Positions 5,280 through 38,459 of a stretch of DNA of 41,849 nucleotides are shown piece after piece. Made by a program: the position numbers and the translations under genes. This stretch comes from a virus. A model generated the notes under the pieces. That model ran no database searches and was not told where the DNA came from. It saw only the letters and a program-made list of their open reading frames with translations. The stretch's first letter is position 1. Every line of letters begins with the position of its first letter. The stretch lies in the IMG/VR virus record IMGVR_UViG_3300025122_000041, positions 1 through 41,849 of that record; one strand, 5' to 3'.

Positions 5280-5433
5280 ACTTTATATAATCTCTAATTG
5301 GGTTTTGATGTAATTAATCGAACATTGTAATGTTTACACGGGGATTCATGGTAATATTTTTATGTAAATCACGTAAAAAGAATTAGAAAACTTTGAGACA
5401 AATATTTATGAAAGGTACCAGGGGAAAATTCTA
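5280..5433 (+). promoter_or_regulatory. Long leader region with small hairpin
   Basis: This is one of the longest non-coding gaps in the window. It holds a perfect small inverted repeat at 5321-5334 (AACATTGTAATGTT), an A/T-rich stretch and the word ACGTAAAAAGAA at 5371-5382, nearly repeated at 32005-32017 in the leader of the first sheath gene. The following gene has AGGGGA about 8 nt before its ATG. A late promoter is plausible here, but neither a T4 late box (TATAAATA) nor a convincing -35/-10 pair is present, so the call rests on position and on the shared word only. Confidence 0.25.
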
Positions 5434-15896: not shown

Positions 15897-16271
15897 ATGC
15901 TTAGCTCAAACAACGTTAATGCTCTTGGTAACATTTTAAATACCACATTTGGTAAGGGTGGGGATGGGACAATTTCTATTGGTCACTCCCTGCAGGGTAA
16001 TATACTAACCCTAAGATATACTACTATCGTTCACTTTGCCTCAGAACAAAGTATGAGTCATCAGGTCCGATCACTAGCTGAAGAGTCTATGGACCGACTG
16101 AATAATAAAATTGCAGATATTAAAAAACAATTTAAAGATTCGACCGGTCATGCTCTTAAGATTTCAGAATTATCCAATAGAGATGATATTGAGATGATTC
16201 AAGCGACGTCCAATTCTCCCAGGAAAATTGCATACTATAGACGATATGCGGATTTAGAGATTGATGCTTAA
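15897..16271 (+). CDS. Conserved small protein upstream of terminase
   Basis: A 124-residue soluble protein with GGAGA about 6 nt before its ATG. The visible pattern (TISIGHSLQGNILTLRYTTI, then a helix ESMDRLNNKIADIKKQF, then SPRKIAYYRRYADLEI at the end) is one I have the impression of seeing beside terminase genes of large T4-like phages, but I cannot name a function. Its stop overlaps the terminase start codon by one base (TTAATGG), so the two proteins should be made in coupled amounts. Position would fit a small terminase subunit (gp16-like), but no helix-turn-helix or ring-forming coiled coil is clear, so that remains a guess. Confidence 0.65.
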   Translation: MLSSNNVNALGNILNTTFGKGGDGTISIGHSLQGNILTLRYTTIVHFASEQSMSHQVRSLAEESMDRLNNKIADIKKQFKDSTGHALKISELSNRDDIEMIQATSNSPRKIAYYRRYADLEIDA

Positions 16272-17866
16272 TGGCACCTGTCAACAAACAGAAGCAAGTA
16301 AAAGAGATCGTGAAGTGCGGGAAAAAGCCCGTTTACTTTTTTAACAAGTATGTGAAGATCCAACACCCGCAAAAGGGTCTTATAGAGTTTGACACATTTT
16401 CCTTCCAGGATGAATGCGTGGAAAATTTTGTTGAACATCGTTTTAATATTATCCTGAAGTCTAGACAGCTGGGAATATCCACGCTGACTGCAGCTTATGC
16501 TGTTTGGCTAGCCATTTTTTATAAGGACAAGAACATCCTGGTCATCGCGACCAAATTAAGCGTTGCAATGAACTTTATTAAAAAGGTTAAGGTTGCATTA
16601 CAAAGTCTCCCTAGGTGGCTTGTTCTACCAGAGCTTACTTCAAACAACAAACAGTCTTTGGAGTTTTCAAATGGATCATCAGTAAAGGCTGTGCCAACAT
16701 CAGATGATGCCGGCCGTTCAGAAGCACTTTCTCTTCTAATTGTTGATGAAGCGGCATTTGTTAGAAATTTTGATGAATTATGGACCGGATTATACCCCAC
16801 TGTGTCAACCGGTGGTCGTGCTATTGTACTATCAACGCCTCATGGGGTTGGTGGTCAGTACTACGATTTATATATGAAAGCCGTTGCACGCGAAAATGAG
16901 TTCAATCCGATTAAGTTACCATGGGATGTACATCCGGAACGTGATGAAGAGTGGTTTGAAACTGAATGCCGCAATCTGAGCCAAAAGCAAATTGCGCAGG
17001 AACTAATGTGTGATTTTGCTGCAAGTGGCGATACTTTTTTGAGCGCTGATGATATTGAATTTATGCGAACTAGGGTCTGTGCACCACTGGAGAAATGGGG
17101 TCCGGAGATGGGGGTATGGGTCTGGAAATATGCATTGAGTGAACACAAATACGTTATTTCTGCTGATATCGCTAGAGGTGATGCAGCCGACTATTCAACA
17201 TTTCAGGTTATTGATACTAGTGAGTCGGAGGTAGTTGCTGAATACAAAGGAAAAATTCCACCTGATCAATTTGCGACACTTTTAAATGAGGCCGGCATGC
17301 GCTATAATAAGGCGCTGTTGTGTCCGGAAAATAATACATACGGTTATGCCGTTGTCATGAAGCTACAGGAGTTAGCTTACCCAAATCTATATTTCAAGAA
17401 TAGGCGTGATAAATTTGCTGCGATGTATGGTACGGATAGTATGATTCATAAGATTGGATTTACAACGTCTGGTCAGACACGCAGTCAAATTTTAACCAAG
17501 CTTGAAGAGGTAATACGAAACAGGCAAATCCGAATTTACTCTTCAAGGCTCTATGAAGAATTGAAGACGTTTATATGGAAGGGTACCAAAGCTCAGGCCC
17601 AAAAAGGGAAGAATGATGATTTGGTTATGGCACTTGCAATAGGTATCTGGCTTTATGATACCTCGGTTGATTATAGTAAACATACTGTTGATAGCAATCG
17701 TGCTATGCTAGATGGGTTTGCAATTAATACCTCAAAACCGCGACAACAATCAAGAAGCCCGTTCGAAAAGTACGCTTTGAACCCTTTCAAACCGGTGATA
17801 TTATCAACAATGCCAGAGTCTGGATCGGTAGACTCTGCTTATGGCGACATGAGTTGGTTATTGTGA
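16271..17866 (+). CDS. Terminase large subunit (gp17-like)
   Basis: A 531-residue packaging motor: an N-terminal ATPase and a C-terminal RNase H-like nuclease. The Walker A region reads ILKSRQLGISTLT (residues 61-73), with the lysine before SRQ rather than the GKT of T4 gp17. Walker B is LLIVDE (155-160), the coupling motif is LSTP (187-190). The nuclease acids are Asp299 (SADIARGD), Glu353 (CPENNTYG) and Asp449/Asp450 (GKNDDLVMA). It cuts concatemeric DNA and pumps it through the portal into the prohead. It lies just upstream of the portal gene, as in T4-like phages, and begins on the stop codon of the preceding small gene. Confidence 0.95.
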   Translation: MAPVNKQKQVKEIVKCGKKPVYFFNKYVKIQHPQKGLIEFDTFSFQDECVENFVEHRFNIILKSRQLGISTLTAAYAVWLAIFYKDKNILVIATKLSVAMNFIKKVKVALQSLPRWLVLPELTSNNKQSLEFSNGSSVKAVPTSDDAGRSEALSLLIVDEAAFVRNFDELWTGLYPTVSTGGRAIVLSTPHGVGGQYYDLYMKAVARENEFNPIKLPWDVHPERDEEWFETECRNLSQKQIAQELMCDFAASGDTFLSADDIEFMRTRVCAPLEKWGPEMGVWVWKYALSEHKYVISADIARGDAADYSTFQVIDTSESEVVAEYKGKIPPDQFATLLNEAGMRYNKALLCPENNTYGYAVVMKLQELAYPNLYFKNRRDKFAAMYGTDSMIHKIGFTTSGQTRSQILTKLEEVIRNRQIRIYSSRLYEELKTFIWKGTKAQAQKGKNDDLVMALAIGIWLYDTSVDYSKHTVDSNRAMLDGFAINTSKPRQQSRSPFEKYALNPFKPVILSTMPESGSVDSAYGDMSWLL

Positions 17867-17900: not shown

Positions 17901-19877
17901 ATGGCTAAAAATTCAAAAAATCTTTTTCAAAAATTAACACAGCTTTTTAGATCGGGCCCGATTGTAAAGAGAAAGGTCAGAAACTTTACTGAGCCAACGG
18001 CATCAACGGCATTAGAGCTATTTAGGCGTAACCATAGTGATGTCTACAATTCAACTCTGAGTGCATACGGTGCTTATGACAGGATGTCACGTTATAGTGA
18101 TTTTAGTGAAATGGAGGCAACACCTGAAATTGCATCTGCTTTAGACATTTATTCTGAAGAGTCCGTTTCGCCTGATGAGCAGGGTCACGTTTTACACATT
18201 TATTCAGAGAACAAGAGAATTCAAGAGTTATTACACAATCTATTTTATGATGTTTTAAATGTTGAGTTTAATCTTGTAATGTGGGTTAGAAATCTGTGTA
18301 AGTATGGTGATTTCTTTTTATTCAATGATATTTCTCCGGAATATGGTGTAATCAATGCATTTCCAATTGCAATTTCTGAAATAGAGCGTGAGGAGAGTTT
18401 CGACCCGAATAACCCTGCTGCAGTCAGGTTTAGGTGGTTGACACAGGGTAACACTACTTTAGAAAACTGGCAAATTACACATTTTAGGTTACTTGCAAAT
18501 GACGCTTTTCTTCCTTATGGTACATCTGTCCTAGAATCCGCCAGACGAATCTGGAGACAATTAATTTTAATTGAAGACGCTATGCTGGTATACAGGGTTA
18601 TTCGAGCACCGGAAAGGCGAGTTTTTTATATTGATGTTGGAAATGTACCCCCGGATGAAGTTTCAAATTATTTGGAGCAGGCACAGTCTAGCCTAAAGAG
18701 GAGTACTGTAATTAATAAAGATTCAGGACAAGTCGATCTCAGGTATAATCCTATGTCGGTTGATGAGGATTATTTTCTTCCTGTTCGCGGTGGTGAGTCC
18801 GGTACTAAGATTGATACTTTGGCAGGAGGTCAAAATACGGCTGCAATTGAGGATGTGGAGTATATTCAAAAGAAATTGTTTGCTGCTCTCAAGGTACCAC
18901 GTGCATATCTAGGATACGATGAAGATATCGGTGCAAAGGCCACCCTAGCCCAAGAGGATATTAGGTTCTCGAGAAATATTCAGCGAATTCAGAAGACTGT
19001 TATAGCAGAACTTAATAAGTTGGCGATGATTCATCTATACTGTCATGGGTATGATAGTGATGATTTAATTGATTTTGAATTAATGTTATCCAACCCGTCT
19101 TCTGTCGCCCAACAGCAAAAACTTGAATTAATTCGTGCCAGATTTGAGATTGCCGGTACGGCTCCCGAGGGAATGGTTTCTAGGGACTGGATTCGAAAGA
19201 ATGTTCTGGGTCTCACAAATGAGGAAATCAAGCAAATTGAGGTTGGAAAAGAGGGAGACAAGATTAGAGATGCCGAACTTGAACAGGCAGCTACGGAGGC
19301 AACTGAGGCCGGAGCCGGTGAAGAAGCTGGGGGTGAGGAGGCCGGAGGTGAGGAAGGAGGTCTTTTCGCAGCTGATGAAACCCCAGGAAAATTATTGACA
19401 TCATTTACCGATATTGATGAAAATGATGAGGAAGATGATGAGGATGAAGAAGGTGACGACCATCCACCCTTTTCAATTGAGGATACGGATACACCATCCC
19501 GCGTGCAGGACCAGATTAGGAATATATTCAATGAACCGATAAAAAAGTCAAGAAAGGTTCGTGGAGGTCGGCGCGATCTTGATATGCCAGACTTTCTCAG
19601 CATGACTAGCGTGGGTAAACCGGCGAGGCAACAAGATTCTATGAATATGCCATTTGGTCGCAATTCTTTAAGAAATCCATTTGGCGAAAATACTAGTACC
19701 TTAGAAAAGGGCGAGATGAAAATTATGAAGAGTCATAAGTTAACTCAAGAGGTTGAACGCGTTTTAAGTAGTCTCGGCAGTGCAATAGGTATTAAAAGGG
19801 ATCAATTGCTGTCAGAACGTGACAATAACGATCAAGCAACCGAAGAGGAAAATACCACAGATGAGCAAGGTACATAA
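17901..19877 (+). CDS. Portal protein (gp20-like)
   Basis: A 658-residue T4-type portal vertex protein, which forms the dodecameric ring that nucleates head assembly and conducts DNA. Recognisable segments include YDRMSRYSDFSEMEATPEI, IASALDIYSEESV, IWRQLILIEDAMLVYRV, RAPERRVFYIDVGN and LKVPRAYLGYDE followed by ATLAQEDIRFSR. The C-terminal third (from about residue 455) is low-complexity and very acidic (GEEAGGEEAGGEEGG, then a run of Asp/Glu near 505-520), longer than in T4 gp20 (524 residues). The ATG lacks a good Shine-Dalgarno site and follows a T8 run at 17880-17887. It overlaps the next gene and sits 34 nt after the terminase. Confidence 0.92.
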   Translation: MAKNSKNLFQKLTQLFRSGPIVKRKVRNFTEPTASTALELFRRNHSDVYNSTLSAYGAYDRMSRYSDFSEMEATPEIASALDIYSEESVSPDEQGHVLHIYSENKRIQELLHNLFYDVLNVEFNLVMWVRNLCKYGDFFLFNDISPEYGVINAFPIAISEIEREESFDPNNPAAVRFRWLTQGNTTLENWQITHFRLLANDAFLPYGTSVLESARRIWRQLILIEDAMLVYRVIRAPERRVFYIDVGNVPPDEVSNYLEQAQSSLKRSTVINKDSGQVDLRYNPMSVDEDYFLPVRGGESGTKIDTLAGGQNTAAIEDVEYIQKKLFAALKVPRAYLGYDEDIGAKATLAQEDIRFSRNIQRIQKTVIAELNKLAMIHLYCHGYDSDDLIDFELMLSNPSSVAQQQKLELIRARFEIAGTAPEGMVSRDWIRKNVLGLTNEEIKQIEVGKEGDKIRDAELEQAATEATEAGAGEEAGGEEAGGEEGGLFAADETPGKLLTSFTDIDENDEEDDEDEEGDDHPPFSIEDTDTPSRVQDQIRNIFNEPIKKSRKVRGGRRDLDMPDFLSMTSVGKPARQQDSMNMPFGRNSLRNPFGENTSTLEKGEMKIMKSHKLTQEVERVLSSLGSAIGIKRDQLLSERDNNDQATEEENTTDEQGT

Positions 19878-20721
19878 TAAAAAGAGAAACGTTGGTATTA
19901 TTTTTGAACAATTAGTGCAGTTTATTGCTGATGCAGTAGTAAAAAAACGTTTTGCTGATGCCAGAAAATGTAGGGATATTATTCGTACCCACTTCAAGTC
20001 CGGGACGGAGCTATATCGGGAGTTTCGTCTTTTTAATGCATTGGTAAAAACACGAGTAGAACATAGTGGACTGGCTACAAGGATTTTAAGTGAAGCCCGC
20101 GACGCGACTAAGAAAATAAATCAGGTAAAATTACGGTCACAAAAATCTTCGTTGATAAAGGATATTAACCATAAATTAAACGAGAGAAATTTTTATAATA
20201 GGCGAGTTACCGATTACACAAGTTATGCGACTATTCAAACTTTAATGAACGACTGGCGCCATAACAATTCGGTTGACATAGGGCGCGTCGCAAAATTTGA
20301 GGATGGCGTGTGTCAATGGCTGTTACAGGAGGGTAATACGGAAAATTCTGACATTATCGCCTATAATGAGAGTTGTGATCCACTAACGTTTAGAATATTT
20401 TTTCAGAAATTTAATGAAAAGTATGTCGACAGCTTAAATGATCGACAGATTAAAATTTTAAATGCATATGCATTTGATTCAACTAATGGCGGCGAAAATT
20501 TGGCCGCTCAGCTTAAGTTGCTGCAGGAGGATATTGTCGACGACCTTAATCAATATATTCAGTCTTGTGAGAACTCTATATTGACAGAAAAATATGAACG
20601 TGTTATGAATAAAATTCTCGAATTTGATCCGACAAATATCTGTGATCAATCGATTTCTAAGGCGTTGATGTTAGCTAATCTTCATTGTGAAATTTTGGGA
20701 GATGATGATGAAAAATCTTAA
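19861..20721 (+). CDS. Unknown protein between portal and protease
   Basis: I choose ATG 19861 (286 residues), overlapping the portal gene by 17 nt; a GTG at 19819 would extend it but has no better signal. The protein is helical and basic at the front (HNKKRNVGIIFEQLVQFIA, RFADARKCRDIIRTHF), with ELYREFRLFNALVKTR and TSYATIQTLMNDWRHNN further on. It occupies the position of the T4 core genes 67/68 between portal and prohead protease, but no similarity to those short proteins is visible. Co-translation with portal and protease supports a head assembly role. It has no enzyme motif. Confidence 0.7.
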   Translation: MSKVHNKKRNVGIIFEQLVQFIADAVVKKRFADARKCRDIIRTHFKSGTELYREFRLFNALVKTRVEHSGLATRILSEARDATKKINQVKLRSQKSSLIKDINHKLNERNFYNRRVTDYTSYATIQTLMNDWRHNNSVDIGRVAKFEDGVCQWLLQEGNTENSDIIAYNESCDPLTFRIFFQKFNEKYVDSLNDRQIKILNAYAFDSTNGGENLAAQLKLLQEDIVDDLNQYIQSCENSILTEKYERVMNKILEFDPTNICDQSISKALMLANLHCEILGDDDEKS

Positions 20722-21310
20722 AGTCCTATCCGACTGGGCACCTTTTGAATATTCCAAAGATATGATAAAGGAATCTAAAGAAGAAAATGATGGGAAAGTT
20801 ATCTTGAAGGGAATTCTTCAAAAAGCAAATACGCTTAATCAAAATGGGAGAATATATCCAACAGTCATCCTCGAACGTGAAGTTAGAAATTATCAAAAAT
20901 TTATTAAGGAAAATCGTGCTCTTGGAGAGTGTGACCACCCCGATTCATCGGTGGTTGAACTTAAGAATGTCTCACACATTATTAGGGAAGCTCACATGGA
21001 TGGGGATGTTTGTTATGGCGAGGTGGAATTGTTGAATACGCCATGTGGTAAAATTCTACAGAATTTAGTTGAGGCCGGTGTAACCTTAGGCATCTCATCA
21101 CGAGGGGTTGGTTCAACTCAAAAAGATGGTGATTATCAAGTTGTACAAGATGACTTTCAATTGATTTGTTGGGATTTTGTCTCTGAGCCATCCACACCTG
21201 GAGCGTTTATGATGCAAGAAGGTAAAGCGGTATCATCGTCAGAATTAAACAATTATTTTAAAAAGACAGATAGAATTGATAGAATATTTAACGAAATCTT
21301 AGACTGGTAA
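20708..21310 (+). CDS. Prohead core protease (gp21-like)
   Basis: A 200-residue serine protease of the T4 gp21 type (MEROPS S80), which matures the prohead by cutting scaffold and capsid proteins at (Leu/Ile)-X-Glu sites. Landmarks: GILQKANTLNQNGRIYP near residue 35-51, catalytic His77 in GECDHPDSS, and nucleophile Ser130 or Ser131 in LGISSRGVGS. The GTG at 20687 is an upstream in-frame alternative, but ATG 20708 has GGGA at a good distance (20697-20700) and gives a normal N-terminus. It overlaps the preceding gene by 14 nt. Order portal, protease, scaffold, capsid protein matches T4, except for small genes between protease and scaffold. Confidence 0.92.
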   Translation: MKNLKVLSDWAPFEYSKDMIKESKEENDGKVILKGILQKANTLNQNGRIYPTVILEREVRNYQKFIKENRALGECDHPDSSVVELKNVSHIIREAHMDGDVCYGEVELLNTPCGKILQNLVEAGVTLGISSRGVGSTQKDGDYQVVQDDFQLICWDFVSEPSTPGAFMMQEGKAVSSSELNNYFKKTDRIDRIFNEILDW

Positions 21311-21768: not shown

Positions 21769-22104
21769 ATGTCTAAAGTAAGAAAACTCACACCTACCAT
21801 ATTAAAGAAAATGGTCTTGCAAGAAAAACGCCGAATTATGGAAGTTTTAGAGACCGGTGAAGAAGATTCTGAGAAGGTTGCCAATAAAACTGATGAGGTT
21901 GATGCTGATGATCAGGCCAATACTTTAGCTAAGGATATTGACCATGTTAAAGCTCTTAAAATTAAGGAAGCTCGCTTAAAGAAAGCACTTCAAAGAATAA
22001 ACGAAACCAAGTTTAAAATTAAGGAAGTTCGTTTAAAGAAAGCCCTCCGACGTGTGCACGCAGCTAAAAATAAAATTAAGAAAAGAATTGCAAAAGCTCT
22101 TTAG
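21769..22104 (+). CDS. Small Lys-rich protein with 19-residue repeats
   Basis: Start is set at ATG 21769, which has GGAGG at 21759-21763; an in-frame TTG at 21724 lacks such a site. The 111-residue product begins with VRKLTPTILKKMVLQEKRRI, has an acidic middle (EEDSEKVANKTDEVDADD), then three repeats of a 19-residue basic helical unit (KIKEARLKKAL..., KIKEVRLKKAL..., KIKKRIAKAL). Repeated amphipathic Lys/Arg helices suit DNA or scaffold binding inside the head, similar in character to T4 internal proteins. No named family. It sits in the head-assembly operon between protease and scaffold. Confidence 0.65.
   Translation: MSKVRKLTPTILKKMVLQEKRRIMEVLETGEEDSEKVANKTDEVDADDQANTLAKDIDHVKALKIKEARLKKALQRINETKFKIKEVRLKKALRRVHAAKNKIKKRIAKAL
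21957..22090 (+). repeat. Three-copy 57-nt tandem repeat
   Basis: The word ATTAAGGAAG at 21961 recurs at 22018 exactly 57 nt later, and ATTAAGAAAAG at 22075 after another 57 nt. The first two copies agree over about 30 nt with two differences, both at sites that vary little in the protein. The unit encodes 19 residues (KIK--RLKKAL plus spacer). The period equals a whole number of codons, so copy number could vary without frameshift. Confidence 0.75.
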
Positions 22105-22633: not shown

Positions 22634-22693
22634 TTGAACGGAAATCAAACCTAACGGTATGCATATTTAAACTAGCATTGTGTAGTTAAGATA

Positions 22694-23326
22694 ATGCGTA
22701 AAATTAGGGTTTGTATGGATAGACGGGCAAAAATAGACATCCGCGGGACCTACCGGAATCACTCTCCAGTTTTTAATGATACTAGGAGTGGTCTTGGATA
22801 TGGGTTGTCTGTACCTAGTGGTAGGTTCGAACCTAGGTCATTACAACAAAGTTTCCCGTATCTTGATGAAGATCCATATGAGGTAGAAGAGTTGGATGAT
22901 GAAAAGCTAGACAACGATATTAAATCTAAGATTTCGTCTAAGCTAAATGTAAATGCACATGCCACTGATTCTTTGGCGGCAAATCGCACGGACCCATTTT
23001 ATTATGCGGCTGGCAATACTAAATTTTCTGAAAACATTTCTGTTGCTAAAAATTCTATTGTAGCTATTCCTGGTTTATATAAAGGCGCGCCCGGTGGATC
23101 GACCGTAGGAGGATTTAGCACGGCACCGGCGGTTAGCGTGAAATCCTATAGGCGAACCGGTACAAAGAGGGGATATTCTAGCCCTCCACCACCAACAGCC
23201 ACCCCAAAGGGCTATGAATTGGTTACATTTAATTTAAAGGACATGCTTGACAATGATGAAATAGCTATCATGAAATTTAAAGCCCTGAGGGACTACATCG
23301 ATATGATGGCTGATAAGGCAGAATAG
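22694..23326 (+). CDS. Small head-region protein, unknown function
   Basis: A 210-residue protein starting at ATG 22694; the Shine-Dalgarno site is weak. It is basic at the front (KIRVCMDRRAKIDIRG), acidic around residues 55-80 (YLDEDPYEVEELDDEKLDND), then low-complexity (APGGSTVGGF, SSPPPPTATPKG), and ends in a helix (MKFKALRDYIDMMADKAE). No recognised domain. Nine bases separate its stop from the TTG of the bS21 gene, whose Shine-Dalgarno AGGGG overlaps its stop codon, so the two are tightly coupled. A minor virion or assembly role is inferred from context. Confidence 0.6.
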   Translation: MRKIRVCMDRRAKIDIRGTYRNHSPVFNDTRSGLGYGLSVPSGRFEPRSLQQSFPYLDEDPYEVEELDDEKLDNDIKSKISSKLNVNAHATDSLAANRTDPFYYAAGNTKFSENISVAKNSIVAIPGLYKGAPGGSTVGGFSTAPAVSVKSYRRTGTKRGYSSPPPPTATPKGYELVTFNLKDMLDNDEIAIMKFKALRDYIDMMADKAE

Positions 23327-23335
23327 GGGTTCATT

Positions 23336-23542
23336 TTGTCAAAACCTGTTAACGTAAGTGTAGAGATGGGAGGCCGTATTAGGTCAGTGGATCAATTAAT
23401 TCGAAAATTTTTACGGTGCTGCAAAGAGGAAGGTTTTTTACGTGATGTTAGGTCTAAATCTAGATACGAAAGTAAAAGTGAAAAAAGGCGTAGAAAAAAA
23501 CATGTTGCAATTAAACGTGCTAGTAAAAAAGTTGATAATTAA
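23336..23542 (+). CDS. rpsU: Ribosomal protein bS21 homologue
   Basis: A 68-residue, strongly basic protein whose residues 17-65 align with bacterial bS21 without gaps: VDQLIRKFLRCCKEEGFLRDV against [20 protein letters not shown] of E. coli, followed by the RYE and KRRRKK...AIKR segments that match FYE and ERKRAK...AVKR. I count about 11 identities in the best 30 positions. bS21 binds the 30S subunit near the anti-Shine-Dalgarno end of 16S rRNA and helps initiation. Start is TTG 23336 with AGGGG 6 nt upstream; an internal ATG (23366) would cut the first ten residues only. It lies inside the capsid operon, 45 nt before the scaffold gene, so it should be made late in infection. Confidence 0.85.
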   Translation: MSKPVNVSVEMGGRIRSVDQLIRKFLRCCKEEGFLRDVRSKSRYESKSEKRRRKKHVAIKRASKKVDN

Positions 23543-23587
23543 CTTTTGCGTGTGCACACATATTTAATCACAATGGAGGAGCATTAG

Positions 23588-25327
23588 ATGTCATTATTTG
23601 AAGAGGCAGTAGCTGATGCAGTTAAATTAAGGAAAGTTGCTGAGCAGACCGCTAAGCAAAAAATCATTGACAACATCACCCCCAAGATAAGGCAAATTAT
23701 TGAACAAGAATTGGTCAGTGATGAACCTGGTGATGAAGTCGACGTTGAAGACGAGGATGAAGCTATTTTAACAATGGATGACATTCTTGTTGGGGACGAG
23801 GATGAACCAACCCCCGAAGGCAAGATTGATATTGATGTGCACGGTGATGCCACTTTCGCATTTTCAACTGATGATATTGAAGTGGGTGAAGAGGAGACTG
23901 ACGATGACGAGGTCATGACCTTAAATCAAGAATCTGCTCGTGCATTAGCGTATGTGATTAAAAATCCAAAAACACTCAGACAGTCTAAAATTGCAAGGCT
24001 TCAAGAAAAAATTCAGAAACTAGATCGAATATTAGAGTTTATAGAGGATAAAGAAATATCGCAGGATTTGCGAGAGTCTGTGCGTAAAAGTTACATAGGA
24101 TTGATCAAAGAAGTTACAAGTTTGCGTAGACGCGCAATACTTACAAAAAGAGCGAATGAAAGGAAATTTCTTCGTTCGAGATTCAACGGAATTTTAAAGG
24201 AGTTTAAAACAATGTCTAGAAGACGTGCTGAAACGCTTTTTGATAGGCTTTTCGAAACTAAACGCAATTTGCGCGAGCTTGATGTCGTGCTTGATGATGA
24301 AGACCTGGAAACACTCGGTGTTGAAGACGTCGAAGGTGCTGACGTTACGGCCCTTGATGTTGGCGTAGAATACGCCGGCGAAGAGGAAGAGGGCGGCGAA
24401 GACGAAGAGGAATTTGGTGCCGAAGAAGAAGAAGTCGAGGAGGGCGATGTGTACGAAGCCGGTCTTGATGAGCTTGATCTTGTGCTTGATGATGAAGATC
24501 TTGAAACTTTAGGCGTTGAAGATATCGAAGGTGCTGACGTTACGGCCCTTGATGTTGGCGTAGAATACGCCGGCGAAGAGGAAGAGGAAGGTGGCGAAGA
24601 GGAAGAGGGTGGTGAAGAGGAAGTTCTTGAAATTGATGAAGGGATGCTTCGTCGCGAGCTTCGTCGTATGCGCCGTTTGCGTGAGCAGGAAGAAGCTGCA
24701 GATGCTGATCCTTATTTGGATCATGGCGGCGAAGATTTGGGTGATGTTGTTGTTGATGTTGATGAAGAAGATCTTCTCAATGCTCTTGATGATGAGCTCG
24801 GTGATCCCGATGTACCAACTCCTACTGTTGAGTCGTTCCGTCGACGTCGTGCACGTCGCCAGGCTTCTCGCCGGCGAACAACCAGTCGCTCTCACAGACC
24901 TACAAATATTCGTGAATCTCGAACCAGAAAAACACTAATCAAAGAGAGCCGTAAAAATCGCGCTCTTACCGGTAAGCTGGGCAAGACCAAGAGAGTTATC
25001 TCGGCCATGAAGAACCAGCTTAATGAGATGAACCTGTTTAATGCAAAGCTCTTATATGTTAATAAATTAATGCAAAACAGGAATCTCAGTACCAGACAGC
25101 AGAAGGCAATCGTTGAGGCACTTGATAGTGCAAAGACTCTTCGTGAGGCTAAACTGCTTTATAAGAGCTTGACCGTTTCGCTTAAGAAGCGTGGCGGTAC
25201 CCTTACTGAGGGTAGAATTGCTAGGACGCTCGGATCGTCTTCCAGATCAATCCGGTCGGCAGCGCCGTCCAAAAGTGGAACTGAGGTGGATAGATGGGCC
25301 GTTCTTGCAGGGATAAACCAGGACTAA
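23588..25327 (+). CDS. Prohead scaffold protein (gp22-like)
   Basis: A 579-residue core/scaffold protein with GGAGGA before ATG. Residues 45-115 and 230-350 are highly acidic (EDEDEAILTMDDI; runs of Glu/Gly), the centre is helical and charged (QSKIARLQEKIQKLDRILEF), and residues 405-450 are Arg-rich. The C-terminal segment LNEMNLFNAKLLYVNK followed by QQKAIVEALDSAKTLREAKL is the pattern of gp22-type scaffolds. It is about twice as long as T4 gp22 (269 residues), partly from a 65-residue duplication. The scaffold fills the prohead and is degraded by the protease. It directly precedes the capsid gene, as in T4, and shares its more CGT/GAC-biased codon use. Confidence 0.85.
   Translation: MSLFEEAVADAVKLRKVAEQTAKQKIIDNITPKIRQIIEQELVSDEPGDEVDVEDEDEAILTMDDILVGDEDEPTPEGKIDIDVHGDATFAFSTDDIEVGEEETDDDEVMTLNQESARALAYVIKNPKTLRQSKIARLQEKIQKLDRILEFIEDKEISQDLRESVRKSYIGLIKEVTSLRRRAILTKRANERKFLRSRFNGILKEFKTMSRRRAETLFDRLFETKRNLRELDVVLDDEDLETLGVEDVEGADVTALDVGVEYAGEEEEGGEDEEEFGAEEEEVEEGDVYEAGLDELDLVLDDEDLETLGVEDIEGADVTALDVGVEYAGEEEEEGGEEEEGGEEEVLEIDEGMLRRELRRMRRLREQEEAADADPYLDHGGEDLGDVVVDVDEEDLLNALDDELGDPDVPTPTVESFRRRRARRQASRRRTTSRSHRPTNIRESRTRKTLIKESRKNRALTGKLGKTKRVISAMKNQLNEMNLFNAKLLYVNKLMQNRNLSTRQQKAIVEALDSAKTLREAKLLYKSLTVSLKKRGGTLTEGRIARTLGSSSRSIRSAAPSKSGTEVDRWAVLAGINQD
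24275..24586 (+). repeat. Two-copy 195-nt in-frame repeat in scaffold gene
   Basis: A 117-nt unit at 24275-24391 recurs at 24470-24586, offset by exactly 195 nt (65 codons). The final 62 nt (24330-24391 and 24525-24586) appear identical, while the first 55 nt differ at synonymous or conservative positions. Each copy encodes ELD-VLDDEDLETLGVED then EGADVTALDVGVEYAGEEEE. The perfect half implies a recent duplication or gene conversion. Confidence 0.85.
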
Positions 25328-25366: not shown

Positions 25367-27271
25367 ATGTCCAAAAATTTCTCACTTAATCAGCTAACCG
25401 AAGGTATTCGGCAACGACACCTAGGTTCGCAAAATCGATTGCTTGTGGAGAAGTGGTCCCGCACTGGTTTGCTCCGTGGATTGGACGGTGTAAATCGCGA
25501 GAACATGTCTCGTCTGCTTGAAAATCAGGCAGCCCAAGTACTTCGTGAGGCCAACAGTGTTTCTACTGGAGCCGGCGCAATGGCCGGATCCGGTGATCTA
25601 CAGGGTTTCACAAATATTGCATTCCCAATCGTACGTCGGGTCTTTGGCGGTCTAATTGCCAATGAGCTCGTTTCCATCCAGCCGATGAGTCTTCCTTCCG
25701 GACTGCTCTTCTATCTGGATTATACGTACGGTGGCAGAGAGTCGTATACGGCCGGTTCATCGAACTTTGGTAATGTGTCGATATACGCAGGTTCGGGTTC
25801 CATTTATAACGATCCCGCGGGCAAGGGCGTACGCTCTGGTTCCCTAGGGGTAGGTGGTCAGTATGACCTCGCTGGATCCGGCTTTACTCGGGTACACAAG
25901 AATTCGGCTGCCATTACCCTTACGGCTTCTGGAGCTTTTGGTAATAACAAAACTATCAACAACGGTGGTACTCTTACACATACCGGTTCTACTGATGCCA
26001 AATTGTTACAGTATGACCCGCAGGTCTCCGACTTGATTGAAGGCGACCCCGCCCGCACCAACACCGGCAAGTTCCAGGCAGTGTTCGTGCCGCTTTCGGC
26101 CGCAACTGATGGTGATACTACGCTGGCTAAAGAGTGGGCATTCCACACCAACGGTACATTTAGAAGTGCCGCAGGTAATGGTATTGCCGACCCGGGCGTT
26201 GACAAGGTGCCTGGTACCCTTCAGGGTGGCGAGAACATCTGTAATGTTCGACGTTTGAACCAGATGGGTACGTACACCTCAAACGCTGGCTTTACGTCGG
26301 ATCCACTTATTGGTGTCAACACCGCGAATGCGGTTCTAATGTGTATCGTTACCGGTACGAAGCATGAAGCCGAGACTGTTTACGTTTCGTATCCGCTTTC
26401 TCCATCGCTTGAAACCGGAGCCTCCGATGGTTCGTCGCTGACAATTCCGACTTTCGAGTCCAATTTCGGTACCGATCCGAGTCCGGCAATCCCAGAGATT
26501 GATATCAAGATTGAGTCTCTGGCTGTTACTGCGGTAACCCGCAAGCTGCGCGCTCGTTGGTCTCCGGAGCTTGCTCAGGACCTGAATGCTTACCACAGTC
26601 TAGACGCTGAGGTTGAGCTTACTCAGATTCTTTCTGAGCAGATTGCTCTGGAAATCGATCGTGAGATTCTTAATGACCTCCTTATGGGAGCCAAGGTTGT
26701 TAGATATTGGTCTCGTGCGCCAGGTAAGTTTGTCAATAAGGAAACAGGTAAGGCACTTGGAAAGCTCGATTCCCTCGCACCTGGACCATCCTTTGCAGGA
26801 ACGGTTCGCGAGTGGTATGAGACCCTTACTGAGACAATCATTGATGTTGCCAACGAGATTCATCGCTTGACTCTCCGCGGATCGGCCAACTTTATTGTGG
26901 TTAGCCCCGATGTTGCAACAATGCTTGAGGCTTCGGTCCTGTATCGTCCATCTTATACTCTTGATGGTGATGGACAGGTCAGTCAGCCGATGTCACTTGG
27001 TGCCGAAAAGATTGGTACACTGAGCAATCGCTTCACGGTCTACAAGGACCCCTACTTCCCACGCAACAAGGTTCTTGTTGGGTATAAGGGTGGTAGCTAC
27101 CTTGAGACCGGGTATGTGTACGCTCCGTACGTACCTCTCATCGTTACTCCGACGATCTTCGCTCCTGAGGACTTCACCCCACGTAAGGGTGTGATGACTC
27201 GTTACGGAAAGAAGATGGTCCGCAGTGACTTCTACGGTACCGTAACGGTTCAGGATCTTAATATCATCTAA
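25367..27271 (+). CDS. Major capsid protein (gp23-like)
   Basis: A 634-residue HK97-fold capsid protein of the T4 gp23 group (T4: 521). The hallmark is GFTNIAFPIVRRVFGGLIAN followed by ELVSIQPMSLPSGLLFYLDY. Residues 1-61 form the propeptide; VLREANS gives a prohead protease site (Leu-X-Glu) after Glu61, close to T4 residue 65. A Gly/Thr/Asn-rich insertion (about residues 130-340) replaces the shorter T4 insertion. The C-terminal core includes ITLRGSANFIVVSPDVATML-like residues and PYVPLIVTPTIF. AGGAG lies 9 nt before ATG 25367. It is the last gene before a strong terminator, and its codon use is visibly adapted (CGT, GGT, ACC), as expected for the most abundant protein. Confidence 0.95.
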   Translation: MSKNFSLNQLTEGIRQRHLGSQNRLLVEKWSRTGLLRGLDGVNRENMSRLLENQAAQVLREANSVSTGAGAMAGSGDLQGFTNIAFPIVRRVFGGLIANELVSIQPMSLPSGLLFYLDYTYGGRESYTAGSSNFGNVSIYAGSGSIYNDPAGKGVRSGSLGVGGQYDLAGSGFTRVHKNSAAITLTASGAFGNNKTINNGGTLTHTGSTDAKLLQYDPQVSDLIEGDPARTNTGKFQAVFVPLSAATDGDTTLAKEWAFHTNGTFRSAAGNGIADPGVDKVPGTLQGGENICNVRRLNQMGTYTSNAGFTSDPLIGVNTANAVLMCIVTGTKHEAETVYVSYPLSPSLETGASDGSSLTIPTFESNFGTDPSPAIPEIDIKIESLAVTAVTRKLRARWSPELAQDLNAYHSLDAEVELTQILSEQIALEIDREILNDLLMGAKVVRYWSRAPGKFVNKETGKALGKLDSLAPGPSFAGTVREWYETLTETIIDVANEIHRLTLRGSANFIVVSPDVATMLEASVLYRPSYTLDGDGQVSQPMSLGAEKIGTLSNRFTVYKDPYFPRNKVLVGYKGGSYLETGYVYAPYVPLIVTPTIFAPEDFTPRKGVMTRYGKKMVRSDFYGTVTVQDLNII

Positions 27272-27299
27272 TCTTAGATTGGTGATAATCCAAACCCTA

Positions 27300-27329
27300 G
27301 GGGGGGCGTTTTCGCCCCCCCTTTTTTTT
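27300..27329 (+). terminator. Intrinsic terminator after capsid gene
   Basis: A perfect 9-bp G/C stem (27300-27308 with 27313-27321), TTTT loop and an eight-T tract (27322-27329), starting 28 nt after the capsid stop. Stem of seven G:C plus CG pairs makes it the strongest hairpin in the window. Confidence 0.93.
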
Positions 27330-32048: not shown

Positions 32049-35000
32049 ATGGCTGAACAGACTTTTAGATCCCCTGGTTTTTTTCCGCGTGAAGTAGATT
32101 TGGGACTACCGGCAAGAGGTCCTAGCGGAATTCCTGCTGGTGTTGTTGGAACTGCCCTCAGAGGCCCTGCTTTTATTCCAGTGACGGTGGGAAATTTTAA
32201 CGAATTTGATACTGCATTTGGTGGTGTTTCTGCGGATAGATTTGGTGTATTGGCAGTACAGGAATTTTTGCGATACAAACAAAGTTGTACGTTTGTTCGA
32301 GTCTTAGGGGGTGGTTCTAATGATGTAAGCACTGATTTTTTGACCACTGAGAGACTGGGAACAGTGAAGAATGCCGGCTTTAAGCTTGAACCCGCTGGCG
32401 CTCACCAATCTGGCCAGACCCAGGGTGGTCAAATCGAGTATGGAGCAGTACAATTCATTGTGGCAAAGCACTATGTTAGCCAGTCCAAGTCAATACAGTA
32501 CCCAATATTCTCACAGAATGACAGCTTCCAGGGAGATGTCCGTGAGATTCATACCTTAGGTCATAAGTTTAATGACACTACTGGAAAAGTGGTGGCGATA
32601 CTTCGTGCCGTACTATTCACTACATCAGGTTCACTTTTTCGTATAAGAGACTGGAATATAAATCTTCCCGGTCTCACGGAGGACCTCGGGCAGGGGCCAG
32701 ACTATGCCAGTCCCGACGCAACCGACCCCAGGAATGCATTTAAGTTAATTCTATCATCGACTAGTGCAACGTTTGCCCAAACACCTGGCGGACTGAAGGG
32801 CGTTCAAGTGTATAGCGCTTCTCTGGATCCGGATAGTAACAATTATTTGGGAAAGATTCTGAATACTGACCCCCTCAAATTTCAAGAACGTCAGCACTTA
32901 TTATACCTGGATCTTCCCGTCGACAATGATATTGCGCCGGTGTATGACAAAGCTGGATCAATAGGCATACTTTCTGGTTCAACTGAGAAGGCCAATGGCG
33001 CTGCCGGAGCGTCCCTTGAATTTATTGATGCATTTGGCAGGTTTGATACCAGATATAAAACCCCCAGAACCCCATGGATTAAATCACAACCTTTCGGTTC
33101 AAATGAGTATGACCTATTTTATGTTGAGACGTTATCTGACGGTGCATATGCGAATGATAAATTTAAGGTTTCCATCGCAAACCTGAAAGCATCCGCTGAT
33201 AACACATACCCATATGGGACTTTTGAAGTCCAGATTCGTAATTTTGATGATACCGATGTCGATAAAAAGATTATTGAGAGGTATCCCGGGTGCAATCTAG
33301 ACCCACTCAGCAATCAATTTGTTGGGAGGGTCATCGGTGATATGAAGGAGAGCTTCAATTGGGACGGCCGAAATGAAACAGAACGACGAATAGTTGTTAC
33401 TGGACAGTATGCGAATAGATCTCTACGTGTTCGTGTGGTGTTGTCCACTGATCTACAAAAGGGTAATATACCCAGGACATCATTGCCGTTCGGGTTTGGC
33501 GGAATTCCGGTAATAAAGACTAGCGATGCTTTGAGTCATATCGCTTCGTATGTACCGTCGGTTAACCCCGCAGTGGGCCAGCTCGGATACGGTCGTCGTT
33601 TGTGGATGTCAGGTTGTGCGGATAGATACGCCCATACCGGACCCGGGGAATCTGCTCAGTACCACCCGGCACAGACTGCCTCTTTGTTGACCTCTTCAAT
33701 CATGCCTCCGTTACCCCTTCGATTTAAGGTTACCAAGGGAAACACCAAGGCCACCCCGCTCTTTAGTGGACACGCCGGTGCAGAGGAGAGAGTTAGTGCC
33801 GCATATTACTGGGGCGTGCAGAATACACGAATTACCTCCAGCAGGGCAGTGAATGCCAGTCAGGAGTTGAATCCAATTGTAAATGCATACACTAAATTTC
33901 ACGGGATTCAGAAATTGGACATGGTAGTAACCGGTGCAGGAGTGGACGTATTCAATAATAACGCATTTACCCTGTCTCGTGTGGCTTTACACAATGAGCT
34001 TGACGCAGCCGGACATATTTCAGCAATAACCGGTACTGCCAAGGAACATATGTTGGAAGCTGCCTATATTCGAGGCATGGCAAAATTAAATGAAAAGAAT
34101 TACACCGTTATAGATCCAACAGGCAGCAGGAAGACCAGGATCACGCTTGGAACGTTACTTAACTCATCGTCTGTAAAGTTTAATAAGTTTACTGAATTTG
34201 CGAAGTTTACCACCATTTTCTATGGTGGCTTTGACGGATTAAATATCCTCGATCGTGATCAATTTCTCATGAATGATAGGGCCACCTCAACCGCAACTCG
34301 AGGAAAAGCGTCCTCAGATTTCTCAGATCTGGGTCTGTCGACACAACCGGCAGGTACCGGAAAGGATAATAGCATTATTCGTGCATATCGGATGGCCTCA
34401 AAATTGCTCACTAACAAATATTCTAGCAATATTAATATTCTGGCAATTCCAGGCATCAGAGAACAGTATGTGACGGACTACGCCTCGGATAGGACTCGTG
34501 ACTATGGTCTTGCAATATATCTTATGGACCTGGAGATAGTCGATGAAAATCAGACCAGGTTATTCAACAATGAGGGTGATTTTATCCCGGATGTTGATGA
34601 AACGGCGGCAAAGATGGACGGCCGAGGGGTGGATAACAATTTTGTGGCAAGTTATTTCCCGGATGTATTTATCCAGGATCGATCGAGTGGGCAGGTTTTA
34701 TATGCCCCGGCTTCGGTGGCTGCATTACAGGCGGTAGGACAGAATGATAATATAGCAAAACCATGGTTTGCACCGGCAGGATTTAGTCGAGGTGCCCTTG
34801 CTAGTGTAACTAATGTCAAGGTGCGACTAACTGCTGTCGATAGAGACACACTGTATGAGAGTCGAATTAATCCAATTGCGACTTTCCCAAATAGCGGCTT
34901 TGTGATATTCGGACAGAAGACACTACAACTAGCACAATCTGCACTGGACAGAGTTAATGTCAGAAGGATGTTGTTAGATGTTAAAAGAGCAGTAATAGGT

Positions 35001-35261
35001 GTCGCTAGAAGAATACTGTTTGAGCAAAATACACCTGCCACTCGAGCGCGCTTCGTATCACAGGTTACGCCCCTGTTGGCACTAGTACAGGCGCAACAAG
35101 GAATTGACCAGTTTCGTGTTGTGATGGATGATACTAACAATACACAAGACGATGTCCTCAATAATCAATTAAATGGTAAGATTGTTATAGTCCCAACTCG
35201 CGCTGTTGAGTTTATCGCAATTGACTTTATTATTGACCAGGCCGGGGTCACCTTTGTATAA
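32049..35261 (+). CDS. Tail sheath protein, copy 1 (gp18-like)
   Basis: A 1070-residue contractile sheath protein with GGAG before ATG. N-terminus: FRSPGFFPREVDLGLPARG, then GIPAGVVGTALRGPAFIPVT and VLAVQEFLRYKQSCTFVRVL. C-terminal sheath domain: QLAQSALDRVNVRRMLLDV (about residue 960), then RILFEQNTPATRARF and PTRAVEFIAIDFIIDQ. The ends, which form the inner sheath core, are conserved; the middle is much longer than in T4 gp18 (659 residues), so extra surface domains are likely. It contracts to drive the tube through the host envelope. A second sheath gene follows after 30 nt. Confidence 0.93.
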   Translation: MAEQTFRSPGFFPREVDLGLPARGPSGIPAGVVGTALRGPAFIPVTVGNFNEFDTAFGGVSADRFGVLAVQEFLRYKQSCTFVRVLGGGSNDVSTDFLTTERLGTVKNAGFKLEPAGAHQSGQTQGGQIEYGAVQFIVAKHYVSQSKSIQYPIFSQNDSFQGDVREIHTLGHKFNDTTGKVVAILRAVLFTTSGSLFRIRDWNINLPGLTEDLGQGPDYASPDATDPRNAFKLILSSTSATFAQTPGGLKGVQVYSASLDPDSNNYLGKILNTDPLKFQERQHLLYLDLPVDNDIAPVYDKAGSIGILSGSTEKANGAAGASLEFIDAFGRFDTRYKTPRTPWIKSQPFGSNEYDLFYVETLSDGAYANDKFKVSIANLKASADNTYPYGTFEVQIRNFDDTDVDKKIIERYPGCNLDPLSNQFVGRVIGDMKESFNWDGRNETERRIVVTGQYANRSLRVRVVLSTDLQKGNIPRTSLPFGFGGIPVIKTSDALSHIASYVPSVNPAVGQLGYGRRLWMSGCADRYAHTGPGESAQYHPAQTASLLTSSIMPPLPLRFKVTKGNTKATPLFSGHAGAEERVSAAYYWGVQNTRITSSRAVNASQELNPIVNAYTKFHGIQKLDMVVTGAGVDVFNNNAFTLSRVALHNELDAAGHISAITGTAKEHMLEAAYIRGMAKLNEKNYTVIDPTGSRKTRITLGTLLNSSSVKFNKFTEFAKFTTIFYGGFDGLNILDRDQFLMNDRATSTATRGKASSDFSDLGLSTQPAGTGKDNSIIRAYRMASKLLTNKYSSNINILAIPGIREQYVTDYASDRTRDYGLAIYLMDLEIVDENQTRLFNNEGDFIPDVDETAAKMDGRGVDNNFVASYFPDVFIQDRSSGQVLYAPASVAALQAVGQNDNIAKPWFAPAGFSRGALASVTNVKVRLTAVDRDTLYESRINPIATFPNSGFVIFGQKTLQLAQSALDRVNVRRMLLDVKRAVIGVARRILFEQNTPATRARFVSQVTPLLALVQAQQGIDQFRVVMDDTNNTQDDVLNNQLNGKIVIVPTRAVEFIAIDFIIDQAGVTFV

Positions 35262-35291: not shown

Positions 35292-38200
35292 ATGGCTGAA
35301 AATTCACTGAGAGGCGCTGGAGTATTTGCAAAAGAAATAGACGTCTCACAACCTCAAGGGGTATCTCCCAGCGGAATCCCTGCTGCTGTCATTGGTACGG
35401 CGAGAACCGGTCCAGCCTTTGTTCCCATTACCGTAGGAAATATTAGAGAATTTGTTTCGAGATTTGGGGATGTTGATAGCACCAAATTTGGTGCCCTGGC
35501 CCTCCGAGAGTGGCTGGATAATAGAAGTGCAGGTACCTTTGTACGTCTATTAGGGGCCGGTGACGGTAAGAAGAAGACCACCACCGGAAACAACACAGGT
35601 AAGGTGACCAACGCAGGCTTTGTTGTGGGAGGACAACTTCCCCAAGATGACGGAAATTTGGGTGATAATACATATGTGCGTGATAGTGGATGGGGGCAAC
35701 CTGGCCTAGGACGAACATATATTCTGGGATGCTTTATGTCAGAGTCAGCCGCAAGTAGCGACAAGGTTTTCTCCACGGCCGGTATCAGCACGCACAGTAA
35801 AATAAGCATTGCCGAGCGAACTAAACCTATTGTTCGTGGCATCCTGATGGCTCCCTCTGGAGTCCAGCTTTCACTTTCCAGTGCCGTTTACAAGGATAAT
35901 ACATTGGGTGGTGCTGGTCAAGTAGCCGGAGGGCCCAGTGGTGATGTACCAAAGTCAGCTCCAACTTCGAATGATGCTGCACCGGTTAATTCCTTTGTGA
36001 TGTATCTGAATAACTTTAAACAGAGTTCAGCCTACTCTACCATTATTACTGCATCATTTGATCCCCAGTCGGACGGTTATTTTGCCAATCGGCTCAATAG
36101 AGATCCCAGCAAAATTGAAGAGGCTGGTCATCTACTATACTCACATTTCAATATCTACAATGCTCAGGCAGTTATCACCGGCTCGGACTCTCGCCTAACG
36201 CATGCCTCCACCTTTCGGCACGCTCCGACAGAGCTGGCATTTCTTCTAACATCATCGCTGGCCAGGAATGTTGGCACTGCGCTCAGTGCTGGTAGCACTG
36301 CCGGCATTCCAAACTTTGAGGGATTTGAAGACAGATTCCAGCATTCAAAAAGCCCATGGTTTATATCCCAGGATATGGGCAATGGTCCTAAAAATCTTTT
36401 TAAGGTCCATGCCCTTGCGGATGGATCCGGATATAATTCTGCCGTTGACGTTTACAAGGACGACCTGCTACCCAATCAGATAAAGATTAGCATCCAAAAT
36501 ATTATGGCAGTTGCTCCGGTGAACCGGACCCCTGGAAATGAGTATGGCAGCTTTGATCTGATGGTAAGAAAGATTGATGATAGTGATAAAAATCCTGAAA
36601 TTTTTGAAAAGTTCAATAATTTGAGCCTTGATCCCGGGTCTGATAGATACATTGGTCGTATAATTGGCGACATGGAGGTATATTTTGACTTCGACAAGGA
36701 GAAACGCGCTCAAAAAATTGGAGTTAGAGGAAGGTATCCTGTCCGTTCTCAGTATATTCGAGTTGAAATATCCAATGATGTTCAGGAAGGACGGGGATCA
36801 ATTAGTCCAACGGTATTACCGATAGGTTTCCGTGGTCCGGCTCACCTGGTGACATCCGGATCCAGTATTGTACAATCCCGTACCGTTCCAGGCGACGGCG
36901 GCGCAACCCCGGCGTTACAAAATGCAGACACTTTGAGAGAAGTTACTCAGCCTCCGGTACCGTTTAGGTGGCATATAGGTATTGGTGTTGAGGATACGCT
37001 TAACTTTAAACCTGACTTTAATTTCTATTGGGGTGTTCAGTTTACACGAAAATCGATTTTGAATCAGCCAAACCAGGACACAACTTTCGAAGATAGCCTG
37101 TATTCCTGGACCAGGTACTATCCTAGTTTTCAAACTACATGGCAAAATGCTGTGGTAGGTGACAATGCCGGAACTGCTGATCAGGGTGGGACCATATTGG
37201 ACAGTGACGTTTTTGGTAATAATAGATTCACATTGGAGCGAATTCAGGTAGTGACTTCCAGTGTAGAGGGAGCATCTGATGTTGCTAACTTAGCCGAGGC
37301 ACAGGCATTCCGGTATCGACGTAATGCAGTAGTAGGGGCGAATCCAGTAACTCAGTTAACTCTTAAGGATGGTTCAAAACAAATGGGTAGGTTCCTTAAT
37401 GTTGATAAGGACTTTCCCAAGGCTTCAAATGTAACCAAGGCTCTTAAATTCAGCGTTTTTCTGCAGGGTGGTTTTGATGGAGTAAATATTTTTAATCACG
37501 ATAAGATCGCATTCACCGACGCTGCTGTTCGTAGGGAGTATGATGACTCTTCCAACCAGGGAGGAGTTGCATCTGGCCCAACTATTCAGGCCTACAGAAA
37601 GGCGATTGATATCCTTGCCGAACATTCAAATGCTGATATTCAACTGTTAGCCATTCCGGGATTGCGCCACCCATCCGTTACGGATTATGCTCTAGATGCT
37701 ATGGAGGACCGCTTCGATGCAATGTATATCATGGATATCGAAAAGAAGGACAAGAACAATAGTTTTGTTACCGGCTCTACCGCCGTTGCCGACGTCGGAT
37801 ACACAGCCGATCGATTTGCTGCGCGCGGTTTGAATTCATCCTTTGCTGCTGCCTATTTTCCAGACATTATATTGAGAGACCGCGTCGGCGGGACTAGTGT
37901 GGTACCCGCATCGGTTGGAGTTCTGGGTGTTTATGGACTTAACGATGCCCTTGGATTTCCATGGTTTGCCCCTGCGGGATACACCCGCGGTGTAGTTACA
38001 CACGCTCTAAGGAGCACCTTATCTCTTGCAGTAGATGACAATAATGTCCTGGCTTCCACGGACGTTAATCCAATTATTGATGTGGTAGGTCAGGGGACGT
38101 TGGTATACGGTCAGAGAACCCTTTTCAAGGCACAGAGCGCATTAGATCGTATTAATGTGCGTCGATTGCTTATTGACATTAGACGGCGAGTCAAACAAAT

Positions 38201-38459
38201 TGCAAACACAATATTGTTTGAACCAAACCGTGAGGAGACCTTGGCCAGATTCAGTTCGGCAGTTGATCCGGTACTAAGTACCATTCAGCAGCAGCAGGGT
38301 GTCGATCGTTATCGTGTACAGATAGATGCTACAACTACAACCCAGGCAGATATTGAGAATAACACAATTAGAGGAAAGATATTCTTGCAACCGACAAAGT
38401 CAATTGACTTTATTGAGCTTGACTTTGTGGTATCCAACACCATAGATACCGGGGCCTAA
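35292..38459 (+). CDS. Tail sheath protein, copy 2 (gp18-like)
   Basis: A 1055-residue paralogue of the preceding sheath protein with GGGAG before ATG. Matching landmarks: LRGAGVFAKEIDVSQPQG, GIPAAVIGTARTGPAFVPIT and FGALALREWLDNRSAGTFVR at the N-terminus, FKAQSALDRINVRRLLIDI (about residue 946), NTILFEPNREETLARF and PTKSIDFIELDFVVS at the C-terminus. The core domains are clearly related to copy 1 while the middle has diverged strongly, so the duplication is old and both copies are intact. It lies 54 nt before the tail tube gene, as gp18-gp19 in T4. Both may build one mixed sheath, or one may form a specialised end. Confidence 0.93.
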   Translation: MAENSLRGAGVFAKEIDVSQPQGVSPSGIPAAVIGTARTGPAFVPITVGNIREFVSRFGDVDSTKFGALALREWLDNRSAGTFVRLLGAGDGKKKTTTGNNTGKVTNAGFVVGGQLPQDDGNLGDNTYVRDSGWGQPGLGRTYILGCFMSESAASSDKVFSTAGISTHSKISIAERTKPIVRGILMAPSGVQLSLSSAVYKDNTLGGAGQVAGGPSGDVPKSAPTSNDAAPVNSFVMYLNNFKQSSAYSTIITASFDPQSDGYFANRLNRDPSKIEEAGHLLYSHFNIYNAQAVITGSDSRLTHASTFRHAPTELAFLLTSSLARNVGTALSAGSTAGIPNFEGFEDRFQHSKSPWFISQDMGNGPKNLFKVHALADGSGYNSAVDVYKDDLLPNQIKISIQNIMAVAPVNRTPGNEYGSFDLMVRKIDDSDKNPEIFEKFNNLSLDPGSDRYIGRIIGDMEVYFDFDKEKRAQKIGVRGRYPVRSQYIRVEISNDVQEGRGSISPTVLPIGFRGPAHLVTSGSSIVQSRTVPGDGGATPALQNADTLREVTQPPVPFRWHIGIGVEDTLNFKPDFNFYWGVQFTRKSILNQPNQDTTFEDSLYSWTRYYPSFQTTWQNAVVGDNAGTADQGGTILDSDVFGNNRFTLERIQVVTSSVEGASDVANLAEAQAFRYRRNAVVGANPVTQLTLKDGSKQMGRFLNVDKDFPKASNVTKALKFSVFLQGGFDGVNIFNHDKIAFTDAAVRREYDDSSNQGGVASGPTIQAYRKAIDILAEHSNADIQLLAIPGLRHPSVTDYALDAMEDRFDAMYIMDIEKKDKNNSFVTGSTAVADVGYTADRFAARGLNSSFAAAYFPDIILRDRVGGTSVVPASVGVLGVYGLNDALGFPWFAPAGYTRGVVTHALRSTLSLAVDDNNVLASTDVNPIIDVVGQGTLVYGQRTLFKAQSALDRINVRRLLIDIRRRVKQIANTILFEPNREETLARFSSAVDPVLSTIQQQQGVDRYRVQIDATTTTQADIENNTIRGKIFLQPTKSIDFIELDFVVSNTIDTGA

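Follow-up and report, generated by a model that had tools for sequence, protein, structure and literature searches.

The virus record IMGVR_UViG_3300025122_000041 of IMG/VR (41,849 bases, hereafter the window) carries a gene for ribosomal protein bS21 (RpsU) just upstream of a probable scaffold gene, in a region whose gene content marks it as the head and tail cluster of a T4-like phage with a contractile tail. The 68-residue product is basic, with a net charge of +14, and profile matches identify it as bS21. It scores 36.1 bits against Pfam PF01165 (curated cut-off 27, E 5.5e-9) and 40.4 bits against NCBIfam TIGR00030 (curated cut-off 28.95, E 1.9e-10), and it matches PHROG 21469, 'ribosomal protein S21', at E 4.2e-10. 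The top solved bS21 chain is 6v39_u (E 2.1e-8), on which residues 17-66 align without gaps. These matches agree with the original prediction, which had described a 68-residue basic bS21 with a gap-free match to the bS21 core and had named the PF01165 search as a check. Against a profile of 13 relatives, from which the window protein and its two nearest kin were left out, the real protein scored 85.5 bits, whereas none of 2000 shuffles of its residues exceeded 11.7, which excludes an effect of composition. The predicted model (input of ten rows) has helices at residues 18-32, 34-42 and 47-67, with a mean predicted local distance difference test score of 77 and a low predicted template modelling score (pTM) of 0.34. 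A Foldseek search of the PDB with this model gave 23 matches at E <= 10, none of them at E <= 0.001 and none named bS21; the search had no cellular bS21 as control, and we ascribe its outcome to the small size and extended shape of the protein.

Start codon and Shine-Dalgarno sites

The position of the bS21 start is kept among kin, with TTG in the window and in relative L002, GTG in L107 and ATG in L003. The next in-frame methionine (residue 11) is replaced by Leu in L002 and by Ile in L107. Both observations support the TTG start that had been predicted from the window alone. The predicted overlap of the Shine-Dalgarno (SD) site with the upstream stop was also found, AGGGG sharing bases with the TAG at 23324-23326. 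The SD pairing of bS21 is middling (-5.9 kcal/mol) compared with that of the probable scaffold gene (-9.3 kcal/mol) and the major capsid gene (-8.8 kcal/mol). Because of the TTG start and the weaker SD pairing, the output of bS21 is probably lower than that of the capsid protein.

Comparison of gene starts with random positions showed that the window phage uses SD sites. The mean SD pairing at 30 gene starts of the window is -5.8 kcal/mol, with 17 of them at -6 or lower, vs. a mean of -2.8 kcal/mol and 14% at -6 or lower for 2000 random positions (a first tally listed 31 positions, one of which was not a start codon, and was repeated with the 30 starts). The starts of Flavobacterium phage immuto have a mean of +0.3 kcal/mol, none of 13 reaching -6. 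Since the window gene starts carry SD sites, unlike those of immuto, the host of the window phage is probably outside Bacteroidia. In Flavobacterium johnsoniae, bS21 Tyr54 helps to hide the anti-SD sequence (PMC9723584, PMC9976891). This residue corresponds to Ile59 of the window protein in the MAFFT alignment or to Lys60 in an ungapped alignment. None of 16 bS21 rows has an aromatic residue at column 59 or 60; the aromatic residue of Bacteroidetes-type anti-SD blocking is absent from all of them.

A link between bS21 and a stronger capsid SD site was considered as indirect evidence for a preference for viral mRNA and was rejected as such. Loci entered the comparison if their capsid start was complete and preceded by at least 2600 bases, and identical capsids counted once (112 loci reduced to 91). 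On raw counts, the mean capsid SD pairing is -8.38 kcal/mol in the 17 loci with bS21 and -7.25 kcal/mol in the 74 without it (p 0.0019). Five independent pairs on the tree gave a median p of 0.625; at a threshold of -8, on average 2.7 pairs pointed in the same direction and 1.0 in the opposite one. Three further thresholds were no better, and five pairs are unable to reach 0.05. Averaged over all genes, SD strength shows no difference between loci with and without bS21 (p 0.15).

The head-gene cluster

The head genes lie on one strand in the order terminase, portal, an open reading frame (ORF) of about 286-300 residues, prohead protease, four small ORFs, bS21, scaffold and major capsid protein (Table 1), followed downstream by two tail-sheath-like proteins and a tail tube. 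The original prediction had placed bS21 between the prohead protease and the scaffold; the position in the head cluster holds, but bS21 does not adjoin the protease gene, as ORFs of 133, 126, 166 and 210 residues intervene. The last of these may share a transcript with bS21, from which it is separated by 9 bases. The scaffold or prohead core protein is called probable because its name rests on position and composition. Its frame gave no significant match in a search against PHROG. By capsid and terminase, the nearest phage records (~36-45% identity) are an unannotated metagenomic phage, Microcystis phage Mel-JY01 and Flavobacterium phage immuto.

Table 1. Genes and sequence elements around the bS21 gene of the window
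Feature	Position	Strand	Basis or remark
Large terminase subunit	16271..17866	+	tblastn to annotated terminases
Portal protein	17901..19877	+	PHROG 213
Prohead maturation protease	20708..21310	+	PHROG 207; open frame scanned from 20687
CATATTTA box	22662..22669	+	gap upstream of the 210-residue ORF; putative promoter
210-residue ORF	22694..23326	+	
SD-like AGGGG	23325..23329	+	
bS21 (RpsU)	23336..23542	+	profile, PHROG and solved-chain matches, shuffle control
ACATATTTAATCA box	23558..23570	+	bS21-scaffold gap; shared without change by the window, L002 and L107; putative promoter
Probable scaffold/prohead core protein	23588..25327	+	579 residues; net charge -53; 8 LxE-type sites
Major capsid protein (T4 gp23-like)	25367..27271	+	PHROG 138

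A promoter-like box between bS21 and the scaffold gene

The gap between bS21 and the scaffold gene holds a box with the core ATATTTA. The box was counted in 88 loci (L092, L093 and L184 left out, near-copies kept), taking the first ATG of the scaffold frame, which is surely wrong in some. The core lies 15-90 nucleotides (nt) upstream of the scaffold in all 16 loci with bS21 and in 29 of the 72 without it. The core was picked by eye in the 16 bS21 loci before counting, and the other 72 are the fairer test; with the fourth base left free, 60 of these 72 have the box before the scaffold, vs. 52 of 1760 random places. The exact core occurs at 19 of 1760 random places, which are mostly coding, and before none of the 88 capsid genes, the better control. 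The ATATTTA box is a candidate late promoter of this phage group. The T4 late promoter TATAAATA was tried and rejected: with up to one mismatch it occurs 61 times in the window, vs. 59 expected, and never on the plus strand of the longer gaps. Sigma-70-like sites were found at chance level only.

Within the longer gaps of the window, seven sites differ by at most one base from CATATTTA, vs. 1.5 in shuffles (0/500 as high). These sites lie at 5401, 15871, 22662, 23559, 32018, 35263 and 38477, and many precede head and tail genes.

At a like distance before bS21 itself, ATATTTA was found in 1 of 16 loci, and in 11 of the 16 the 1200 nt that precede the bS21 frame showed no box. The window, L002 and L107 each have one box ahead of the ORF that precedes bS21; in L002 and L107 its distance to the bS21 frame is 665-675 nt. 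The bS21 gene seems to close one transcript unit, with scaffold and capsid in the next. Because the promoter-like box separates bS21 from the scaffold, bS21 may be on the transcript of the upstream gene rather than on the scaffold-capsid one. The expectation that bS21 is made together with head proteins therefore stands only in part: the location in the head cluster agrees with it, whereas the box in 16/16 bS21-scaffold gaps may place the scaffold on another transcript. PMC9723584 likewise describes the region as not transcribed as a single operon.

Relatives and evolution

A scan with the window bS21 gave five viral contigs, four of them with the same bS21 sequence. Scans with the capsid protein and the scaffold gave the best 80 of at least 599 loci and the best 80 of 81 loci, respectively, the latter partly on records from the capsid scan. 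From the scanned loci and two phage records, an iterated local profile collected 17 distinct bS21 proteins, of which 17 match PF01165 and 16 match TIGR00030 (E <= 0.01). For sixteen of them the gene and the scaffold frame share a strand, with bS21 upstream by 21-68 nt; the seventeenth is that of Mel-JY01. A second subgroup (L031, L036, L051, L057 and L072) has a two-residue insert in the middle of the protein, and the open frames of L031, L051 and L057 have a putative basic N-terminal extension.

The distribution of bS21 is patchy. Of the 36 loci that the capsid scan found and that span both protease and capsid in a single piece, 6 carry bS21. A whole-record search covered 50 of the 87 loci L002-L006 and L012-L093, five of the 50 having been fetched by bS21; PF01165 matched 12 of the records at E <= 0.001, and 7 of these also passed the family cut-off. 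Presence counts that include L002-L006 are biased because those loci were found by bS21. As many relatives share these head genes but show no bS21 in the examined stretch, it is probably dispensable in this phage group. In tblastn searches of 50,697 phage records, the window bS21 had no match at E 0.01 and the L109 bS21 none at E 1. The Mel-JY01 bS21 matched 17 records at E 0.1, with at least 80% of the query covered by itself alone and 61-76% by the others. A contig scan for a cellular source with ten phage bS21 rows gave 95 pattern matches and confirmed no relative, in a scan that needs short near-exact stretches.

Mapping of bS21 on a capsid tree of 86 rows, 16 of them with bS21, required at least 7 changes, 5 of which are forced by well-supported branches (the short capsids L124, L156, L164 and L165 were dropped, as was L184, which duplicates the L023 record). 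On a smaller, 40-row tree at least 6 changes were required, 4 of them forced. Distances between bS21 proteins follow those between capsid proteins (r 0.77 for 15 rows; r 0.55 after adding Mel-JY01), with 0/5000 permutations as high in either case. The simplest reading is that bS21 is an old gene of the head cluster with several later losses; a possible alternative is that the same slot gained it repeatedly. Between the window and L002, the ratio of nonsynonymous to synonymous substitution rates (dN/dS) is ~0.07 for bS21, 0.13 for the capsid, 0.04 for the portal and 0.03 for the protease, values that are rough because synonymous sites are near saturation. Those of the other head-cluster genes span 0.025 to 0.29 (one undefined), a range that includes bS21. 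The low ratio of bS21 shows that it is under purifying selection.

Proposed role of the phage bS21

Late replacement of host bS21 favouring viral mRNA is a published hypothesis (PMC9723584, PMC6375957). Host bS21 is loosely bound and exchangeable, and the bS21 of Pelagibacter phage HTVC008M enters E. coli ribosomes (PMC6375957); phages with bS21 transcribe it and their structural genes late in infection (PMC9723584). It is likely, in our judgement, that the phage bS21 joins the host 30S subunit, is transcribed with an upstream head-cluster gene and sustains initiation, perhaps with a bias towards phage mRNAs. Transcription with the upstream gene would fall around the time of head-protein production. 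The protein would then enter the platform of host 30S subunits, replacing or supplementing the loosely bound host bS21, and would keep translation initiation running, perhaps favouring late mRNAs of the phage with strong AAGGAG-type sites. As the host apparently uses SD sites, any such bias would act by helping SD pairing and not by anti-SD blocking as in Bacteroidia.

Several observations weigh against this proposal. The HTVC008M bS21 leaves E. coli ribosomes only ~5% active in vitro (PMC6375957), so incorporation is no guarantee of a preference for viral mRNA. In many relatives that have these head genes, the examined stretch holds no bS21, and 38 of the 50 searched records have none anywhere, most of these being fragments. 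The link between bS21 and capsid SD strength does not hold up on independent pairs, and the mean SD strength of all genes shows no difference. A histidine at residue 56 lies near the Tyr54 position, and an alignment shift of 3-4 residues would weaken the argument from the missing aromatic residue. The bS21 model has a low pTM and no bS21 among its Foldseek matches.

A more specific version of replacement holds that lineage-specific bS21 with the N-terminal signature KPVNVxVxLGGxIRT makes specialised ribosomes tuned to AAGGAG-type sites, and that it is switched on from the transcript before the scaffold-capsid promoter, converting ribosomes just ahead of capsid synthesis in an SD-using host. 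We regard this version as unlikely. If true, it would offer a direct test of whether one exchanged ribosomal protein alters mRNA choice.

It is equally improbable that the main effect of bS21, once taken up by ribosomes, is a shutdown of host translation and not a preference for viral mRNA. The fall of in vitro translation with HTVC008M bS21 speaks for such an effect (PMC6375957), but that experiment was cross-species, as its authors state. A general late block would also harm capsid synthesis, and the late genes of the window phage use ordinary SD sites.

There is a slim chance that this basic bS21-like protein now serves in the head itself, either in the prohead core or packaged as an internal protein, with the acidic scaffold or DNA as its binding partner. 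The near-constant slot beside the scaffold and the opposite net charges of the two proteins (+14 vs. -53) favour it, and packaging in virions is raised as a possibility in PMC9723584. However, 16 of the 17 bS21 proteins still match the ribosomal equivalog model, and many relatives have the same head genes without bS21. The T4-type protease site is [LI]xE[AGSNK]. None of 16 bS21 rows has this site, compared with 8 sites in the scaffold, 5 in the major capsid protein, 3 in the 133-residue ORF and 2 in the 126-residue ORF. The 166- and 210-residue ORFs also have none and the portal has one, and an internal protein may stay uncut. The missing sites only weakly disfavour a core-protein role.

That bS21 is a neutral passenger, a captured host rpsU gene without effect, agrees with the patchy distribution and its at least 7 changes on the capsid tree but is very unlikely given the low dN/dS, though at near-saturated synonymous sites, and the co-divergence with the capsid gene.

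On the possible redirection of translation by phage bS21, this group offers a useful comparison between relatives that share the head cluster but differ in the presence of bS21, under apparent SD use and thus unlike the Bacteroidetes case.

Comparison with known systems

By far the most frequent phage-encoded ribosomal protein is bS21 (PMC9976891). Earlier papers already describe bS21 in phages, its location near head genes and its proposed replacement of the host protein (PMC9723584, PMC6375957), and the window bS21 is well supported as a real, mostly ordinary, slightly different example of an aquatic-phage bS21. The freshwater Bacteroidetes phages of Chen et al. 2022 (PMC9723584) likewise have bS21 near terminase, portal, prohead protease and capsid genes, and the prohead protease is counted there within ten genes of bS21 in 310 cases among 900 published bS21 phages. 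However, the 47 genomes of that study have bS21 on the strand opposite the head genes, whereas the window bS21 is on the same strand. Their bS21 keeps an aromatic residue at position 54, which the window protein lacks, and their predicted hosts are Bacteroidetes, whereas the window phage genes carry SD sites.

Mel-JY01 (PP395634.1), an isolate with a named host, carries a gene annotated as RpsU, which lies between the prohead protease and capsid genes in the same orientation. Its product is 28% identical to the window bS21, and two ORFs (388 and 50 residues) separate the gene from the ORF that precedes the capsid gene. Among marine myoviruses, bS21 is found in HTVC008M and other T4-like phages (PMC6375957), and in an OM43 phage rpsU adjoins tRNA-Arg (PMC9004378). 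The main text of the Far-T4 paper (PMC4360716) has no occurrence of S21, ribosom, prohead, gp22 or synten. Three details may be new: the position of bS21 directly before the scaffold gene and on its strand, the box that parts the two genes, and the setting of SD use. They were not met in the cited passages of this literature in a search that was not exhaustive; the 900 phages of PMC9723584 may well include such cases.

Other features of the cluster

Short tandem repeats lie within the scaffold gene at 24376-24623, and a 57-base repeat within the basic 126-residue ORF at 21957-22080. A strong terminator-like hairpin of 10 pairs followed by a T run stands directly after the capsid gene (27299-27322). 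The two tail-sheath-like proteins are long and adjacent, at 32049-35261 (1070 residues) and 35292-38459 (1055 residues), and both match PHROG 23.
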